The notes beneath the pieces were generated by a model that saw only the letters and a program-made list of their open reading frames with translations, searched no databases and was not told the origin of the DNA. Below are positions 13,165-59,500 of a stretch of DNA of 64,000 nucleotides, piece by piece; within the stretch, counting starts at the first letter, position 1; every line of letters begins with the position of its first letter. Source of the DNA: Glaciozyma antarctica PI12 (taxonomy: Eukaryota > Basidiomycota > Microbotryomycetes > Kriegeriales > Camptobasidiaceae); the NCBI GenBank assembly GCA_002917775.1, contig KZ627148.1, forward strand, positions 1,341,431 to 1,405,430. Direction: 5' to 3'. The position numbers and the translations under genes are program-made.

Positions 13165-15086
13165 CTAACTCTCCACCCGCTGAATCGCCAACTTCCTCGC
13201 CGACTTGGGCTTAAGCAGCTCCGCATCGACTCCCTTGGGCGCATGCGCCCTCCTGTTCTCCTCCTTCTTCGACCTCGCATCCAACATCGTCCTCCGCAGC
13301 GTCTCGGCGTTATGAATCGGCTTGGGAAGGAATCGTTGCCTGCGCGCACCATCAGCGCCTGGATATGGGAGAAAAGGGGGAAAGAAAGACGCACCGTTCG
13401 AGCTTGGCCACTTCTGCGACAGAGCCCCACTTGTCTCGAAGCCCGTCGCGGTACTCCTTGCGCGCCATCTCGCGCTTGTCGACCGTACCGAGCTTCTCCG
13501 CCGCGCGAGCTTTCCAGATCCGGAGGTTCGAGTCGTCGGAACCTGAGAGGACGAAGCGCGAGTCGAGAGTGTAGAGGGTTGAGAAGACGCTGCGAGATCA
13601 TCGTGAGCTTCGAGCGAGAGAGGGCAGAGGGAGGGGACGAACCGCTGCATCCGCTTGGTGTGGTACGTATCGCGGGTCTTGCCTTCTCCGCCGGTCCACA
13701 TTCGGACGGTGCGGTCGTAGCTACCCGAAACGAACTCGCGACCCGTAGGAGCCCAGTCGCACGACATGACGCTGGAGAAGGAGCAGAGGTCAGCCGTGAA
13801 TGCGTTGTAGAGGATGAGGTGGACGCACGCTCCGACGTGGCCCTTGTAGACTTGAGTCGTCGTGCTGAGGTTGCGGATATCGAAAGTGTAGAGGTTGTGG
13901 TCCTCGGAGGCGCAGAGAAGGACGGAAGGTTGCAGCGGGTTGAAGACGAGCTGGTTGACCCTCATCTGCATCGTCCAAAAGCGTTAGCCTTGACTCGAGA
14001 GCAAAAAAAGCGCCACGCACGTTTAACGCGACCCTCCCAACCGCCTTGCCACTCCTCAAATCGTACAGGCACACGGTCCTATCGCTACCACTACTCGCGA
14101 GAATGCTCGTCTCGCTCTTGTTGAACGCGACCGAGACGATATGCTCGCCCGTCGAGAGAGCCGAGGTCGAGTGGAACTTGAGCGTCGAGAGAGGGGAGGT
14201 CTTGGTTTCGTCCCAGATTTCGATCGAGGATGAGGCGGTGGCGAAGATGGGATCGTAGCGGTGATGAGAGATGGAGCTGCGTGTGAAGCGTGAGCGGAGA
14301 GGCGAGAAAGGAGGGCCCAGTGAACGTACTTGAAGGCAGCCTTGCCGACGTAGGTTTGCAGAGGCTTCGCAGAAGGAGAGGTCAGCTCCACACCCGCCAT
14401 CAATTACCAAAGCGAGAGCTCACTTTGACTCCGACTCCCCTTGCGCCCCTCACATCCCAGAGCTTGACCGTCTTGTCAACCCCACATGACAAGATCCTAG
14501 GCGACCCCCTCGCCTGAGGCGCCATCATGACATCATCACTCATCACTCCCCTCCTCCCTCCCCCTTCCCCTTCCCCCTTCCCCTCTACCCTCTTCCTCTT
14601 GACCCCCCTCTCCCCCGCTCCAACCTTCTTCTCGACCCTCCCCTCCTCCCCATCAACAGGGTGCGAAAACGCCAACCCCTTCACCATCCCCCTATGCCCC
14701 CCCACCACGTCCCAGACACTCTTCCGATCTCCCAAATCCCACACCCTCACTTCCCCATCCCCACTCCCACTCCCCACCCTCCCCAATCCCCCACTCTCAT
14801 CCTTCGTCATGCAGTACAGTCCGTCCCCATGTCCCTCGAGAGAAGCGACGAAAGGCTTGCTGAACATCCGCTCCAACTTGGCTGCTGCGAGTGCGCGAGT
14901 GTACTCTCGAGGTCGAGCGAAAGGGTGGAGAGCGGGATCGAGGTTGCGGGAGATGGGAGCGGTCGAGGTGGAGGAGGTGGGGAGGTGCTCTTCGAGGGAG
15001 CGGTGGAGGACTTTGATTTTCTACGGGGGTGGAGCTGGAGTCAGGCTGGGTCAGAGGTGGGAGGTGCGGAGTGAGCTTACGACCAT
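13165..15086 (-). CDS. SOF1: SOF1/DCAF13-type WD40 protein of the U3 small-subunit processome
   Basis: A nucleolar WD40 protein needed for 18S rRNA maturation. The first exon is only ATG GTC; a 60-nt intron (15080 to 15021) joins it to KIKVLHRSLEE, giving the typical MVKIKVLHRS start. WD repeats follow: EGHGDGLYCMTKDE, GDGEVRVWDLG, RILSCGVDKTVKLWDVRG, SSGSDRTVCLYDLRSGKAVG, ASEDHNLYTFDIRNL, SGSYDRTVRMW and SGSDDSNLRIWKA. The conserved Sof1 C-terminal tail is present (QRFLPKPIHNAETLRRTML, ending ARKLAIQRVES). A basic Gly/Glu/Lys-rich insertion between the first repeats (around 14530-14640) is lineage-specific low complexity. All exons join in frame. Confidence 0.9.
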
Positions 15087-15299
15087 CTTGGAGTTGTCCG
15101 CGTGAGAAGATCAAGACGGAAAAGCAGCTCAGCTCAACGGCGCGAGAAGGAGAGAAATCCTCTCGCTCGCACGGTCCCTAATTCGATCCAACTCGTTCAA
15201 TCGTGGCGCTGTTTCCTCTGCTTTCCTCGTCGGAGCGAACAAGAACGGATTTGGTACGATAAATTCCATACAGACAGCTAGCTCTCCTCCTTCCTCGAC

Positions 15300-16641
15300 T
15301 TAAACAGCTCCAGCGCCTTCAACCTCGTCGTCCTCCGGCAACCGAATCTCTCCCTCCTCACTCGAATCCCGAACATACCTCCACCCCACGCTCGCCAGTA
15401 ACGAAATAAACACCATCGCCGCTCCCAAAATAAGGGGAATCTGCCATAGAAAGAACGGGGCATCGTCAGCGTTGTTGCGCCTGGCAGCGAGAGAGACCGA
15501 ACGCACAAAGACTTGGGGAGGCTTGCCCTCTGAATTGATGGCGAGTGCGATGGAGAGGTAGATGGACGCAGCGGCCCAGACAAAGTCGGTCCACACGAAT
15601 ACGACGAGCGAATTGACGAAAGCCTGCGACAAAGTTAGTGCCTGCGACGATAAGGACGAAGCGAGGACGCACAATCCCCATGACGACTCCGAAAGCAATC
15701 CAGGAATGCATGGCATGGTCGCCTTCCCATTTGCCGTGATGTTGGCCTTCAAGAGGGCCGATGTAGCGGTACCAACTGCGCCAGCAGGTCAGGTCTTGCG
15801 AAGGATGAAGCGAGCGACAAACGTACCCCAAAGCCAGGAGCCCGTTCTGCCAGATATCGCACGAGAAGATAATTGCGAGCAACATCCTGCCACACCCCGC
15901 TTCATTAGTCTACGCCTCCGAGCCTCAGTCGCGACGAACGTACCTCATCGGCGCGTGAATGAACAAGTAGTCCATAGGCCTGCTCGCCGCGCACGGATAA
16001 AGCAAGAGCGTTCCCCACACCGAAGCAGCGAGTACGAGCGCAGCAAAGAGGATCATCTCGGCGATGAAGAAGAGGCGGAGAGTCCAAAAGAGGACCCAGG
16101 CTGCCATGAGGAGGTTGATGGCCGCGAGGCGAGTTCCGACGCCCGAGACGAGCGTTTGCTGCATCCGTACCGTCAGCTCGCACTCCTACTCGTCCTCACG
16201 AAGCTGATCCCTCGCTTGTGGAGGCAGTAGAACTCACCTTGGTCTCCGGCTTCCGCGCGATACTCAACAGCAAGCTCTGCCCGATCAAGAGGATGATAAG
16301 GACGCCCCAATAAGCTCCAATGAGCGTCGACTGCGAGCCAGTCAGCTCCCTCACCTCGTCCCCAAAGCAGCGGTCTTACAGAGGGAGTGAGGATCGTGAG
16401 GTACTGGTCGCTGATCTCCGCGAGTCTGCGAACAGAGAGCGTCAGCTGGCGCGTGGAGAAGGAAGGGGGGAGCGTACGTAGGAGAGGCGGCGAGGGCGGA
16501 GACGAGGGAAGCGGCTATGAAGAGTAGAAGGGAGAGTGGGGTGAGGAGCTGGAGCCGGGCTAGTTGACGGTCGAGGATGACTGCGTCCACTTGGACTGGG
16601 TCTGGTACTGAGAGAACTGCTGAGGTGTAGGGCGTTGCCAT
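15300..16641 (-). CDS. Multi-pass membrane protein of unknown function
   Basis: I do not recognise this protein with certainty. The start is set at MATPYTSAVLSVPDPVQ. Six or more hydrophobic spans are visible, for example LLTPLSLLLFIAASLVSALA, GAYWGVLIILLIGQSLLLS, AAINLLMAAWVLFWTLRLFF, AEMILFAALVLAASVWGTLL and PLILGAAMVFISLLASVGW. The C-terminus is short and acidic (SSEEGEIRLPEDDEVEGAGAV). Conserved-looking polar residues sit in loops (WYRYIGPLEGQHHGKWEG and CDIWQNGLLALG). The overall layout, short N-terminus plus many helices and an acidic tail, resembles fungal DUF1774-type membrane proteins, but this is a guess. It is interrupted by several short introns and is divergent from GPN3. Confidence 0.65.
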
Positions 16642-16998
16642 CGTTGCGGTTTCGAGGTTGTGGTAAGAGGGAGAGGAGCGAAGGCAAGATGACGCGGGAG
16701 GAGGTGGGTTCGGCTTGAGGAGCAGCTGGTCGCTCTCTTCGAGGTGAGCTAGGGCTGCTGGGGCAAGAGGCGACTTGAAATCCGTAGAGCACCTCCGCCC
16801 TGCCGCCAAAGGGATCAGGGAGAAGCTCAACCTGCGCCGAGCTCGTTCTTAATTCCTCGGAGCCGGACTCGCAGCCTGTTGCTCTCTCCCAACCAGCTCC
16901 AAACTTGCCAGCAGCACCTGTACAGACAAACGGCCTTCACGCGAAGCTACTCAGCTTGAAACCCATCCTTTCCGCCGAGCTTGCGACCTCAGCAAAGC
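16642..16998. promoter_or_regulatory. Divergent promoter and leader region between the membrane protein gene and GPN3
   Basis: About 360 bp between the two oppositely directed genes. The end nearest GPN3 must contain its untranslated first exon, because the GPN3 start codon is completed only after the first intron (donor at 17000). No ATG on the plus strand could give a normal GPN3 start here. Confidence 0.5.
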
Positions 16999-18391
16999 AG
17001 TGAGCCCTCTCCTCCTCCGAGCGTTGCTCCCAGCTGACTCTCCCTCCTCGCAGTGCGTTGTACGTCTCCGTTCCAGCTTCCACCGCCTCCCCTTCACCTA
17101 CCAAGACCCCACCCCGCGCCGCGCCCTCGCACCCTCTCCCACCTCCCCTCTCCTCCCTCAGCAAAACACTTCCCACCCTCTCTCGCTCCCACACCACCTC
17201 GCGCTCCTCCACACCAGCTAACCCACATATCTCCCAGACGCAGTCCTCGTCACTGGCCCCGCCGGCGCTGGCAAATCAACCTTCTGCGCCTCCCTCATCA
17301 CGCACGCTCAATCGCTCGGTCGGTCGGTCCACCTGTTCAACCTCGACCCTGCGGCGGAGAAGTTTGAGTACCCGCCTTCGATCGATATTAGGGATTTGAT
17401 CAGCTTGGAGGAGGTGATGGAGGATTTGGAGTTGGGGCCTAACGGGGGGTTGATCTACTGCTTTGAGTGAGTTCCCGTGCGAGGTGCTGGAGGGAGGGAG
17501 CTGATGGAGGCTGCAGGTACCTCATGAACAACCTTGACTGGCTATCAGACGCTCTAGGAGATTTTGAGGACGACTACGTGAGCTTCCTACCCTCTCCCTG
17601 CGCTCGCCTCGCCTGACCTCCTCCTCTCCAGCTCATCATCGATTGCCCAGGGCAAATCGAGCTCTACACACATATCCCCGTCCTCCCCCGCCTCGCCAAA
17701 CTCCTCACGACGACGATGAACATCTCGCTCGTGAGCGTGTACCTCCTCGAATCTCAATTCATGGAGGATTCCGCCAAATACTTTAGCGGAGTCCTCAGTG
17801 CGATGAGTTGCATGGTCGGCTTGGAAGTCCCGAGTGTGAACGTGATGAGCAAGATGGATTTGGTCAAGAAGGGGACGACGGGGGCTAAGAGGAGGAAGGA
17901 CGTTGATCGGTGCGTCGCTTTCGGTGGCGATGGGGACAGCGAGCTGAAGATGCGTGAACAGGTTCCTGGATCCTGATCCCGAGCTCTTGCGCGAGTCAGC
18001 GAACAAGATCACGAACCCCAAATTCCACGCCCTCAACAGCGCGCTCGTCCAGCTCGTGCGTTCGCTGCAGTTCCGCGCGAAAGGAATCGAAGCTGATTCT
18101 CGTGGAACGCAGATCGAGGACTTCAACATGGTTCAATTTCTGCCTCTAGACGTGACGGACGAGGACTCAATAGGTATCGTCCTCTCGCACATCGACAACG
18201 CAATACAGTGCGTCCCTCTCTACGAGCTTCCCGCAGATTTGGTGCTGATTGCTCTCGATACGCAGGTACGGCGAGCACGAGGAGCCCAAAGAACCTAAAG
18301 ATGCGAGTTTTTGAGCGTCGAAGGCGGAGAGCGAGCTGAGCTGACGTGGTTTTCGCAGATGGACGAGGGAGACTTTGACGTCGGGGAGTGA
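16999..18391 (+). CDS. GPN3: GPN-loop GTPase 3 (Gpn3), with an intron-split start codon
   Basis: A cytoplasmic GTPase that with Gpn1 and Gpn2 supports RNA polymerase II assembly and nuclear import. Motifs are complete: P-loop [11 protein letters not shown], the GPN loop in [12 protein letters not shown], switch [11 protein letters not shown], and the base-contact motif SKMDL. The N-terminus [15 protein letters not shown] only appears if an A at 16999 is spliced (intron 17000-17053) to a 6-nt exon TGCGTT (17054-17059), which is then spliced (intron 17060-17237) to AC-GCA-GTC. The start codon is therefore A|TG. The C-terminus also needs an unusual intron: EPKD joins [10 protein letters not shown] through a GC-AG intron at 18303-18358. 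Without it the frame stops earlier, after EPKDASF. The remaining introns are canonical. The first base could instead be an artefact of an extra G at 17053. Confidence 0.88.
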
Positions 18392-18618
18392 GGGGTCGTT
18401 GGAGGCTGTCTTTTGTATTATACGAATAGTAGATCCTATCGAGCGAGAGGGCAGAGAGAGCGAGCTAGAGAGAGCAGAGGTCGAGGCGCGCGCGCCCGGG
18501 AGAAATGTGCCAAGTATGCAGCCCATTCCGAGGCGTGTGAACTAAAAAGTATACGTATGGCAGGAATGAAAGAAGTGTGGACACAAAGAATATGGGGGAC
18601 AGAAGGGCAAGAGCCTGG

Positions 18619-24572
<5,954 letters not shown>

Positions 24573-40561: not shown

Positions 40562-41542
40562 TCAGTCTTCTTGCAAGAGGAACCCCACGCCAGCATTCCT
40601 CAGCTTCGTCTCAAAGTTCCTGCAGCACATCTCATCAGCTCACGTCTCCGCTAAGCTCTCGAGGACGCACGAGTACCACCGCGCGATGACTCCGAGCTCG
40701 ATCCAGCTACCCTTCCCATCTGGCAGCGGCTGTGCGAACCCTCCCACCTGCGTCGCAATTGTCAGTGGTTGACTTCATGCCACGTGAAGCTCGAAACGCA
40801 CATGGTTAAAAAGGTTCTGGCCGACTCGCTGTGCCAGCAGCACCGGATCCATCGCAACGGGCGCATTCCGAGCGAGTACCATCCCCGTCGACGGCGCTGT
40901 CCCCACCTCTGCATGTTTGCTAAGTCCCAAAGCCGCACCATGAGCTTGTACAGCCTCGAGTGGCTCGCAGAGGATCCCTAGCGTCGCCATGAGGTGCGCA
41001 TTTGGCGCGAGCGAGGAAGCGGATGCGAATCCGGAGGTGTGGGAGGTGGCGGAAGCGATGAAGTCGCCTCGGAGGCGGAAGATGGCGGAGGGCTTTGCGT
41101 TCGATAAGCTATAGAGGGAAGCTTAGCGAGGTGAGATGAGGGAAGAGGAGCTGCTCACGAGCCGATTAGCTGCCAGCCTTTCCCGCTGCGAGGAGGTCAG
41201 CAGGCTCATACGAGAAGCACACTTTGTCTGAGCGAGCTCACGGAGTCTCAAGGTGGATTGTGCATCCGTATCCCTCTGGGAAAGGAGCTGAGGAGACCGA
41301 AGCGTTAGCTCTCCCTCCGCGCCTCCAGCTCCCGCACCGCGACTCACCAGCTCCGGTAAGAAACACAGCCACATGATTCAACGCCTCTGCTTCTGGTATC
41401 GAGGCGACGAACCGGTCGGGAGCTTCTGGTACCTGCTGGGTCTGCTGAACGAGTCGGCCGGGGATAACGAAGGCGAACTGCAAGCAGGAGCGTTAGCTGC
41501 GGGGATCCCGGGGACCTGACTGGAGGAGCTTGAGCGCACCAT
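40562..41542 (-). CDS. OPI10: OPI10/Hikeshi family protein (Hsp70 nuclear carrier type)
   Basis: Hikeshi in animals carries Hsp70 into the nucleus during heat shock; yeast Opi10 affects phospholipid regulation. The first exon is just the ATG (41542-41540). A 62-nt intron follows at once, and the protein then reads MFAFVIPGRLVQQTQQVPE. Conserved family landmarks are ALNHVAVFLTG, PFPEGYGCTIHLETP, GKGWQLIGSLSNAKPSAIFR and NLFNHVGGFAQP. The C-terminus RWYSNFETKLRNAGVGF matches the family pattern WYxNFxxKLxxxPxFL. The gene is compact with about six introns, all in frame. It is divergent from the GT90 gene. Confidence 0.9.
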
Positions 41543-56505: not shown

Positions 56506-59500
56506 CTAACGGAACACGAGACGGTGCAGGATCTTCGAACCCTCCTGGGCTGAGAGAGAGACGACGAGTCAGTCGAGGGTCGAAAACGGCGCGAGCGAGC
56601 GAGGACGAACCTATCTCCCAGCGCGAATCTGCAATGTAGTCGATGATGCTTTCGCACAACGGAAGCCTGAGAAAGTGAGTGTTAGTAGAAGGCTCAGCTT
56701 CAGCTGAGGAAGCGAGTGCAAGCTTACACGTTGTTCTGCGAAGCAAAGGTCAGCGATCACCCTTCAGCGACGACGGCGAAGAAACACGCACCTTCTTCGT
56801 AACCACGAGGAGACCTTCAAGAGCTCAAGATTAGCACCAGGTACGCCAACTTCAGGACGAGAACGTACCGTCCGGAGTCGCCGCGCACATGGAATCGAGG
56901 TAAGTCATCGTAGCCGCGCGATGGTCAGGTTCGCGAGGCCCAGCTGGCCCAGAGGCTGGTTGAACGCAAGCAGAGCATCAGCGTATGCTGGTGACGACGT
57001 GAATGAAGACGCACTGGCGATACCGAAGCAATAGAGAGTGAGGCAGGCGATGTACACGGACCAGCCATGGTGAAGGCACGCCGCGAGGTCACCAGTTCCG
57101 CGCAAGTAGTGCTCGAGGCTTGACCTGCGACGACATCCTTGTCAGGATCTGCGCAGTAGAACGGTAGCAGTCGACTCACCGAAGGAAGTGAGCCGCATGC
57201 CAAGTCGCTGCCCGACCATCCTTTGACGCCGCCCAAGTCCGAATCCTGCCCTTTGTCGCTTCTTGAACCGCTGGCGACACGATGAGCCCGAGAGCGTTCT
57301 CTGCACCGGCGAAGATCTGCGATCGGTGGTCAGCTTTAGCTGAGAGACTTAAGGTGGGAGAGTTAAGGATAGGGAGAAGGGGAGAGCAAGAGCGAAAGCC
57401 TACTTGAAGTTCGTGAATGTCTATCGAGAGAGTGACGTGTGCGACGGCACTGCATTCGCACATCGTCAGCCTTTAAATTCGACGACGAAACGAAAAGCGG
57501 AACGCACTATAGAGAAATCGAAGCTCGGAGCATCTGAGACTGCACGAACGGCGCGGTGAGCAGGCAGGTGTCGAGGCGTGACTTCCACGAGTTGTAGCTG
57601 GCAGAGCTAAGAAGCGGTACGAGGAAAGAAGGGGTCAGCAACCGCCAATCGGTCCCAACGAACGCGCGCCAGCCGACTCACATCATGTCGCGCCAGTTGT
57701 TCGCCCTCCCTTCCAGCTGGCTCAAGCCGATGACATGGTCTCGCCTGCGAAGAGAGAAAGATCAGCGGCGTATCAGCGGGCGCACGAACTCGGCGCACCA
57801 TTGCAGGTCCTGAGCGACGCTGAGAAGACCGTGCAGAATTGCGATACGGGAGAAGGGGTTGAGCACCGGCGGAGCGTGGCCAGGCATGAGGCTGGCTTTG
57901 AGAGCGGAGATGAAAGGGATGGGAGCTCGAGATTGGCTGTAGGCTTGCGCCCACACCTCCGCGTTCGGCGCGTCCCATAGCTCTTCGTCGCATGGAAGAG
58001 TGAGCTGGATCTGGAACGCCGAGAGCGCAGGCGAATGTCGGAAGAGTGCGGCGTCTGGACGAAAAAGGTTAGCCGCAGAACTGCTCGAGAAGCGAGAGGC
58101 TTACGCTCGACGTCGACGGCGAACTCGACGTGCGCGATCCTCTTCGCAGACTCCTCCTCGATCCAGGCGTCCCACTGTGCGTGAACGTCGTGCGAATGCT
58201 CCGTGACGATGATGGTTCGCTGTGAGAACAGAGCACTTCGGCGTCCCAGCTGCGAAAGAAGCTTCAATTCCTGCGACGTCGAGGGCCAGCACGGCGTGCG
58301 TACCGTAACGACAGAGCTCCAGAAGATGTGTGACATCTCGTGCGCCATGCGGTTCGAGCAAAGCTTTCCGAACACGATGAGAAGCAGCGCCGTTTCTGCA
58401 CGCGCGGGCGAAGTCGTCAGCGAACTGTAGAGCGGCAGGAAGAGCGATCCAACGCACGATGTAGCCAGATCTCGGCGCGGGGTCGGAAATCAGTGGACTG
58501 AAGATCGCACGAATGTCAACACAGCTCAAGAGAAGACGACAGCTGAACTCACGCAGAAGACCTTGCCGCGAAACCCGGGGTGGATCTTGACGGCGAGCTG
58601 ATGAGCTTCGGGCGCCTCCGCAAAGTAGGTACCGAGGAGGACCTGCAGCAGCGAGTTAGTCCTTCCGTCCCGGAGATATAGAGTGGAACGAACCATGGAG
58701 AGGATCAAAGGGACATGCGCGGTTTCGGTGCTGGGGCGCAAGTCAGCATCCTGTTCCAATCGTGATGGTCAAGAACTCACTTGAAGCTAGCTCGATGAAT
58801 GCACGGAGCCTGAGTCTCGTGGATGCGCGTCCAGAATAGGCAGAGATACTCCTCGATGGCTTCCGACGACATGCGCGAGTCTCCTCGAAGGCCGATCCAT
58901 TCAGGCTGCGAGAACGGTCAGCCGAGTGCGCGCTCAGAGGAGGGAAAGGAGGGACGCACTCCGAGGTAGTCGAGAATACGAAGCCGGGTCGCAGGGCTCA
59001 CAAACGTCGAATGGTCGCGAGGGTGTTGCTGAGGCAGAGGCGTAGCGGTCGCTGCGACGCTCCCGCTCGCACTTGAGCCCTGACTTGGAGCTCGCTCCTG
59101 CATCGATTCGACAGGTCAGCTCGACTTCAGCAGCTGAGAAGGAGAACATACTCACCGGATGCTTAGCGATCTCAGAGTCGTGGGACTTGGGCGGCGCCAT
59201 CTCCGCAACTGGTCCAGGAAGCTGCTCCGGCATTGCGCCAGCCCAAGCTTGCCCTTGCGCTTGCTCTCCAGGCGCACTGAAACCCCTCGCATCGAGCTCC
59301 AACCTCGCATATTCGAGCCCGCGCGACGCTTCCTCGAGCCTTTGCCCAACGCTAGGAGACATCGCACCGATCATCTCGTCCGCGGGTCCGGGACTGGCGG
59401 GTCGACTGCTCCCGAGCGTGATGTTGAACGACGAGTTGCCAAAGAGCCAGTCGTACTCGCTCGCTGAGACGAAAGGCGCGCCGTACGAGGCCTGGATAAA

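Follow-up and report, generated by a model that had tools for sequence, protein, structure and literature searches.

We report that the gene for GPN3 (GPN-loop GTPase 3) predicted in a 64,000-nt stretch of Glaciozyma antarctica PI12 DNA (contig KZ627148.1; the whole stretch is referred to as the window, and positions are counted from its first letter) probably has a start codon that an ordinary spliceosomal intron of 54 nt interrupts between A and TG (A|TG) and that is followed by an exon of 6 nt. On this model, to which we give a probability of roughly 0.9, the region is the 5' end of a functional GPN3 gene. The arrangement described in the initial annotation was confirmed as an observation, and reading it as a split start is well supported by the computational evidence; the case is made by the match of a conserved Arg-Tyr (RY), the intron scores and the uniqueness of the solution taken together. 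The complete GPN3 model has nine exons and encodes 277 amino acids, with the following features (the basis for each is given within brackets):

16999, plus strand: final base of the 5' leader exon (exon 1), providing the A of the split AUG (sequence)
17000-17053, plus strand: intron 1, 54 nt, phase 1 within the start codon, GTGAGC / GCTGAC / CGCAG (intron scoring)
17033-17038, plus strand: GCTGAC in intron 1, resembling a branch site, with its A at 17037 (pattern only)
17054-17059, plus strand: exon 2, 6 nt, TGCGTT, i.e. TG of the AUG, the Arg codon CGT and the first base of the Tyr codon (translation; RY is found in human GPN3 too)
17060-17237, plus strand: intron 2, 178 nt, phase 1 in Tyr3, GTACGT / GCTAAC / CCCAG (intron scoring)
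17238-17466, plus strand: exon 3, with the P-loop GPAGAGKST and the GPN motif (translation, human GPN3 match)
17517-17577, plus strand: exon 4 (gene model)
17632-17909, plus strand: exon 5 (gene model)
17962-18055, plus strand: exon 6 (gene model)
18056-18112, plus strand: 57-nt intron, in frame and stop-free, easily read through as 19 extra residues (homology gain on removal)
18113-18207, plus strand: exon 7 (gene model)
18266-18302, plus strand: exon 8 (gene model)
18303-18358, plus strand: GC-AG intron (GCGAGT...CGCAG), the last of GPN3, with a strong branch site (gene model)
18359-18391, plus strand: exon 9, the 10 C-terminal residues and the stop (gene model)

The letters and coordinates of A 16999, of the introns 17000-17053 and 17060-17237 and of the 6-nt exon match the window sequence, and on inspection intron 1 is canonical, as had been described, in its GTGAGC donor, GCTGAC branch-like site and CGCAG acceptor. 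Translation across the junctions 16999/17054 and 17059/17238 gave the conserved GPN3 N-terminal peptide, again as proposed. The spliced start context reads CAAAGC-AUG-C, with an A at -3, and the branch-like A of GCTGAC lies 16 nt before the last base of intron 1; the branch-like GCTAAC of intron 2 is likewise placed 16 nt from the end of the intron. Since its donor follows the A of the ATG, intron 1 belongs to the introns that disrupt a start codon, with use of this codon for initiation being predicted, and TGCGTT is a microexon in the sense of a very short exon that lies between two introns and is needed for the reading frame.

The predicted protein is GPN3, as it is nearer to GPN3 than to GPN1 over almost its full length. 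Specifically, the 277-aa protein matches human GPN3 (9t5j_C) with 308.5 bits (E 5.3e-91; query residues 2-270), while the match to human GPN1 is far weaker (91.2 bits) and GPN2 is absent among the 5 matches listed. The Pfam family PF03029 (ATP_bind_1) was matched over positions 1-240 of its 240-position profile (E 1.3e-79), and both GPAGAGKST and LGPNGG are present in the translation. The alignment begins with R2 of the query on residue 3 of human GPN3, which has two residues before RY. Given that R2 is encoded in the 6-nt exon and Y3 spans the exon 2/exon 3 junction, these conserved residues constitute direct evidence for the second junction. GPN1-GPN3 are described as central to RNA polymerase II maturation and trafficking (PMC10746158). 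GPN3 relatives were also sought in viral contigs (7 stretches matched the pattern) and in genome contigs (35), and none was confirmed.

At the 3' end of the gene, an eight-exon model encoding 296 amino acids was considered and rejected as wrong, since it reads through the 57-nt intron 18056-18112. With this intron removed, the score against human GPN3 rose from 286.6 to 308.5 bits and that against PF03029 from 251.2 to 267.9 bits, and the biggest gap relative to human GPN3 was closed. If the GC-AG intron 18303-18358 is left unspliced the protein ends ...KDASF and the normal C-terminus is lost.

To judge the two introns at the 5' end against their surroundings we trained a two-strand gene finder on the window, keeping any intron that begins in 16900-17240 out of the intron training; the coding model was seeded with GPN3 and two Pfam-matched ORFs (TFIIS_M/SPOC and Forkhead). 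A Pfam scan of ten long ORFs gave families for two of them and none for eight. The gene finder predicted 20 genes in the window, whose G+C content of 60.4% and densely placed short introns are in keeping with a basidiomycete yeast, and among four neighbouring predicted proteins three matched Pfam families (phenol hydroxylase-like, FtsJ-like and Sof1/WD40) and one had no match. From the predictions, 156 GT introns were kept (gene score >10, flanking exons no shorter than 25 nt); these are predicted rather than transcript-derived, their median length is 56.5 nt, the longest is 268 nt, 139 of the 156 end in CAG, and the commonest donors are GTGAGT, GTGCGT and GTACGT. Intron 1 scored higher than 117 of these predicted introns (75.0%) and intron 2 higher than about 60 (38.5%). 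With a strict set of 100 introns (flanks no shorter than 60 nt, GPN3 locus excluded, leave-one-out scoring) the corresponding numbers were 65 and 42. Intron 1 has a rather weak donor (14th percentile), and the length of intron 2 is high for the window, where four of the 100 strict introns exceed 150 nt. As judged by these scores, the two putative introns resemble the other predicted introns of the window in donor, branch site and acceptor.

The sequence at 17053 is one letter away from a plain ATG, and an extra G, i.e. a single-base error in the record or a recent mutation, would leave an unsplit start codon and no intron 1, with the downstream coding sequence and intron 2 unaltered. In that case the donor, the branch site, the pyrimidine stretch and the 54-nt length of intron 1 all become accidents. 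We imitated the situation by inserting a G into 1178 other ATGs on both strands and seeking an upstream A|GT donor, and none of the 1178 reached the score of intron 1 (best 14.11 vs 16.19); the same was true for the 131 located outside predicted genes (0/131) and for the 18 predicted starts (0/18), and with a stricter model the best imitation scored 14.16 vs 15.57. Moreover, none of 3000 shuffles of 16701-17049 gave an intron as good. We therefore regard an extra G as very unlikely. Among the 385 AG|TG sites in the window two score as well as intron 1, namely intron 1 itself and a site on the minus strand (57507-57450).

The initial annotation also held that no plus-strand ATG can start GPN3, which is slightly too strong. 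The region 16600-17500 contains two plus-strand ATGs, 16689 and 17417. The latter is in the GPN3 frame but lies past the P-loop; 16689, which as written opens an ORF of nine codons, can reach GPN3 through a weak intron. The absence of ATGs over 16693-17237 is not unusual (none seen vs a shuffle mean of 1.15, P(0)=0.27), and ATG depletion was for this reason dropped as an argument for the split start. The first exon of the alternative model is:

16689-16703, plus strand: alternative first exon (ATG), requiring the weak 289-nt intron 16704-16992 (gene finder, enumeration)

In this model the exons 16689-16703 and 16993-16999 precede the 6-nt exon, the protein begins MTREEQSMRY... and the codon split by intron 1 is that of an internal Met; a variant without the 6-nt exon begins MTREEQSN.... 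Skipping of the 6-nt exon (16999 joined to 17238) forms no ATG at the junction, and the skipped form is possible only with ATG 16689. At its default setting the gene finder starts GPN3 at ATG 16689, placing two exons (15 and 7 nt) ahead of the 6-nt exon, and it makes the same choice under every setting that penalises split starts and permits long introns; the training of its start model included the context of 16689 itself, which gives a slight lean toward this ATG. Against it, the 289 nt of intron 16704-16992 exceed the length of every one of the 156 introns, and its total score and its branch signal are each at the 1.9th percentile of that set (5th and 3rd, respectively, of the 100 strict introns). 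In addition, human GPN3 has just two residues ahead of RY, and a divergent gene has its predicted start at 16641, 48 nt away from ATG 16689. Because the intron it depends on is poor, we rate ATG 16689 as a minor rival, and an unlikely one.

How far the choice depends on the gene finder was seen from 11 settings applied to 14001-20000. Both junctions in question (16999/17054 and 17059/17238) were used in nine of them; the two misses were those with an intron limit of 120 nt, where the start moved to 17417 and the P-loop was lost. The split start was chosen in three of the 11 settings, i.e. with no split-start penalty or with introns limited to 200 or 250 nt, and split starts were switched off in three others. 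When a penalty on split starts was combined with introns of up to 300 nt ATG 16689 was preferred, via the same A|TG junction. Finally, in a run over the whole window with no penalty and introns of at most 280 nt, GPN3 was the only gene among 20 with a split start.

The 5' ends that can feed the P-loop exon were also enumerated over about 16400-17239, with no more than three GT-AG introns per solution and none longer than 300 nt. At an intron threshold of 11.88, which corresponds to the 5th percentile among the 156, and also at 10, the split ATG was the sole solution. ATG 16689 is missing at both these thresholds and appears at 8.8; at 8.8, 8 and 7 there were three solutions, the two additional ones both starting at 16689 and one of these skipping the 6-nt exon. 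The 5th percentile of the strict leave-one-out set is lower, 8.77, and the upstream intron of 16689 scores 8.38 on that scale. When 16401-17219 was shuffled 600 times with dinucleotides preserved and the acceptor of intron 2 kept, 52 shuffles gave some start (74 solutions), so that a start arises by chance in about 9% of cases; none of the 600 gave a start ending in RY, and much of the weight is consequently carried by the conserved RY.

If intron 2 is retained, reading leaves the GPN3 frame. If intron 1 is retained, there is no AUG between 16692 and 17417, and an in-frame GUG is present at 17053-17055. It could be argued that intron 1 does not exist and that translation begins at this GUG (GUG CGU U|AC), which is in the correct GPN3 frame; any A|TG split leaves a GUG at this place upon intron retention. 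GUG is a poor start codon in eukaryotes, and a GUG start leaves the signals of intron 1 unexplained; of the alternatives considered here we find it the least probable.

Under the split-start reading, removal of intron 1 would create the AUG, with its A at -3, and removal of intron 2 would bring CGU-U|AC into the frame of the P-loop exon. Both introns are expected to be spliced out of most transcripts. Short fungal introns are recognised as units, and recognition of this kind may be the way in which an exon of 6 nt is tolerated here; as the two sites are only 6 nt apart, introns 1 and 2 would presumably be removed one after the other. Transcripts that remain unspliced would yield little or no GPN3. 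Most likely the arrangement is constitutive rather than a regulatory switch. The geometry as such is observed, and it might be imagined that splicing gates GPN3 translation, with spliced mRNA starting at the strong AUG and intron-1-retaining mRNA at the weak GUG, such that the splicing capacity would determine how much of this RNA polymerase II assembly factor is made; we consider this improbable.

The initial annotation referred to both a split initiation codon and a 6-nt exon as rare, and this is partly borne out by published data. In a survey that included fungi, introns of phase 1 and phase 2 that interrupt the start codon are documented and described as "relatively rare" (PMC1626468, Nielsen and Wernersson 2006). 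The position of the intron in the start codon is common to these cases and to GPN3, but the peak in the survey is directly after the ATG (phase 0), whereas GPN3 has A|TG with a next exon of 6 nt (PMC1626468). For Yarrowia lipolytica 42 "start codon" introns are reported, with the 5' splice site after one of the start codon's bases, A, T or G (PMC13309789). The placement of the donor is the same as in GPN3, but Y. lipolytica is an ascomycete, and the passages cited neither divide the 42 by position nor describe a tiny exon (PMC13309789). Cryptococcus neoformans is an intron-rich basidiomycete with a median intron length of 56 nt and exons down to 1 bp; the short introns and tiny exons resemble those of the GPN3 locus, and the passages cited mention no start-codon case (PMC3990503). 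In Fusarium CYP621A a one-nucleotide exon is confirmed by RNA reads, and there, as in GPN3, the tiny exon was revealed by a conserved protein motif; the CYP621A exon is internal and read-confirmed, while that of GPN3 is at the start and predicted from the sequence (PMC12940212).

Among the red yeasts, intron 1 of Rhodotorula toruloides GPD1 is given as "+3 to +131" (PMC5124236). Should +1 denote the A of the ATG, this intron would lie at or within the start codon; the passage gives coordinates only (PMC5124236). In the same species introns altered the expression of five of six genes tested (PMC5124236), and 5' UTR introns are mentioned for its promoters (PMC6599526). Phrase searches of the literature for split start or initiation codons returned no on-topic match in a collection that covers few subscription journals. 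Split starts and very small exons are each of a known kind; the unusual part is their combination in one gene, and we make no claim to a first report. GPN3 is a clean candidate case of a housekeeping gene that acquires its first codon only through splicing, with a 6-nt exon coming next. For such genes, gene finders that insist on an uninterrupted ATG or on exons above a set length would give a wrong or truncated N-terminus. The locus also offers a simple test of whether retained transcripts of an A|TG-split gene start at GUG.

With respect to the surroundings of GPN3, its divergent neighbour (15300-16641, minus strand) is predicted to encode a 312-aa protein with long hydrophobic stretches, for which no Pfam family was found at E 0.001; 357 nt separate the start codon of this neighbour from A 16999. 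The minus-strand pair 57450-57507 lies within a predicted gene, for which the gene finder chose a longer intron (57450-57681) that shares the acceptor. Other tiny exons, all of them gene-model predictions, are present on the minus strand at 21900-21907 (8 nt), 56728-56735 (8 nt), 56541-56549 (9 nt) and 41540-41542 (3 nt).
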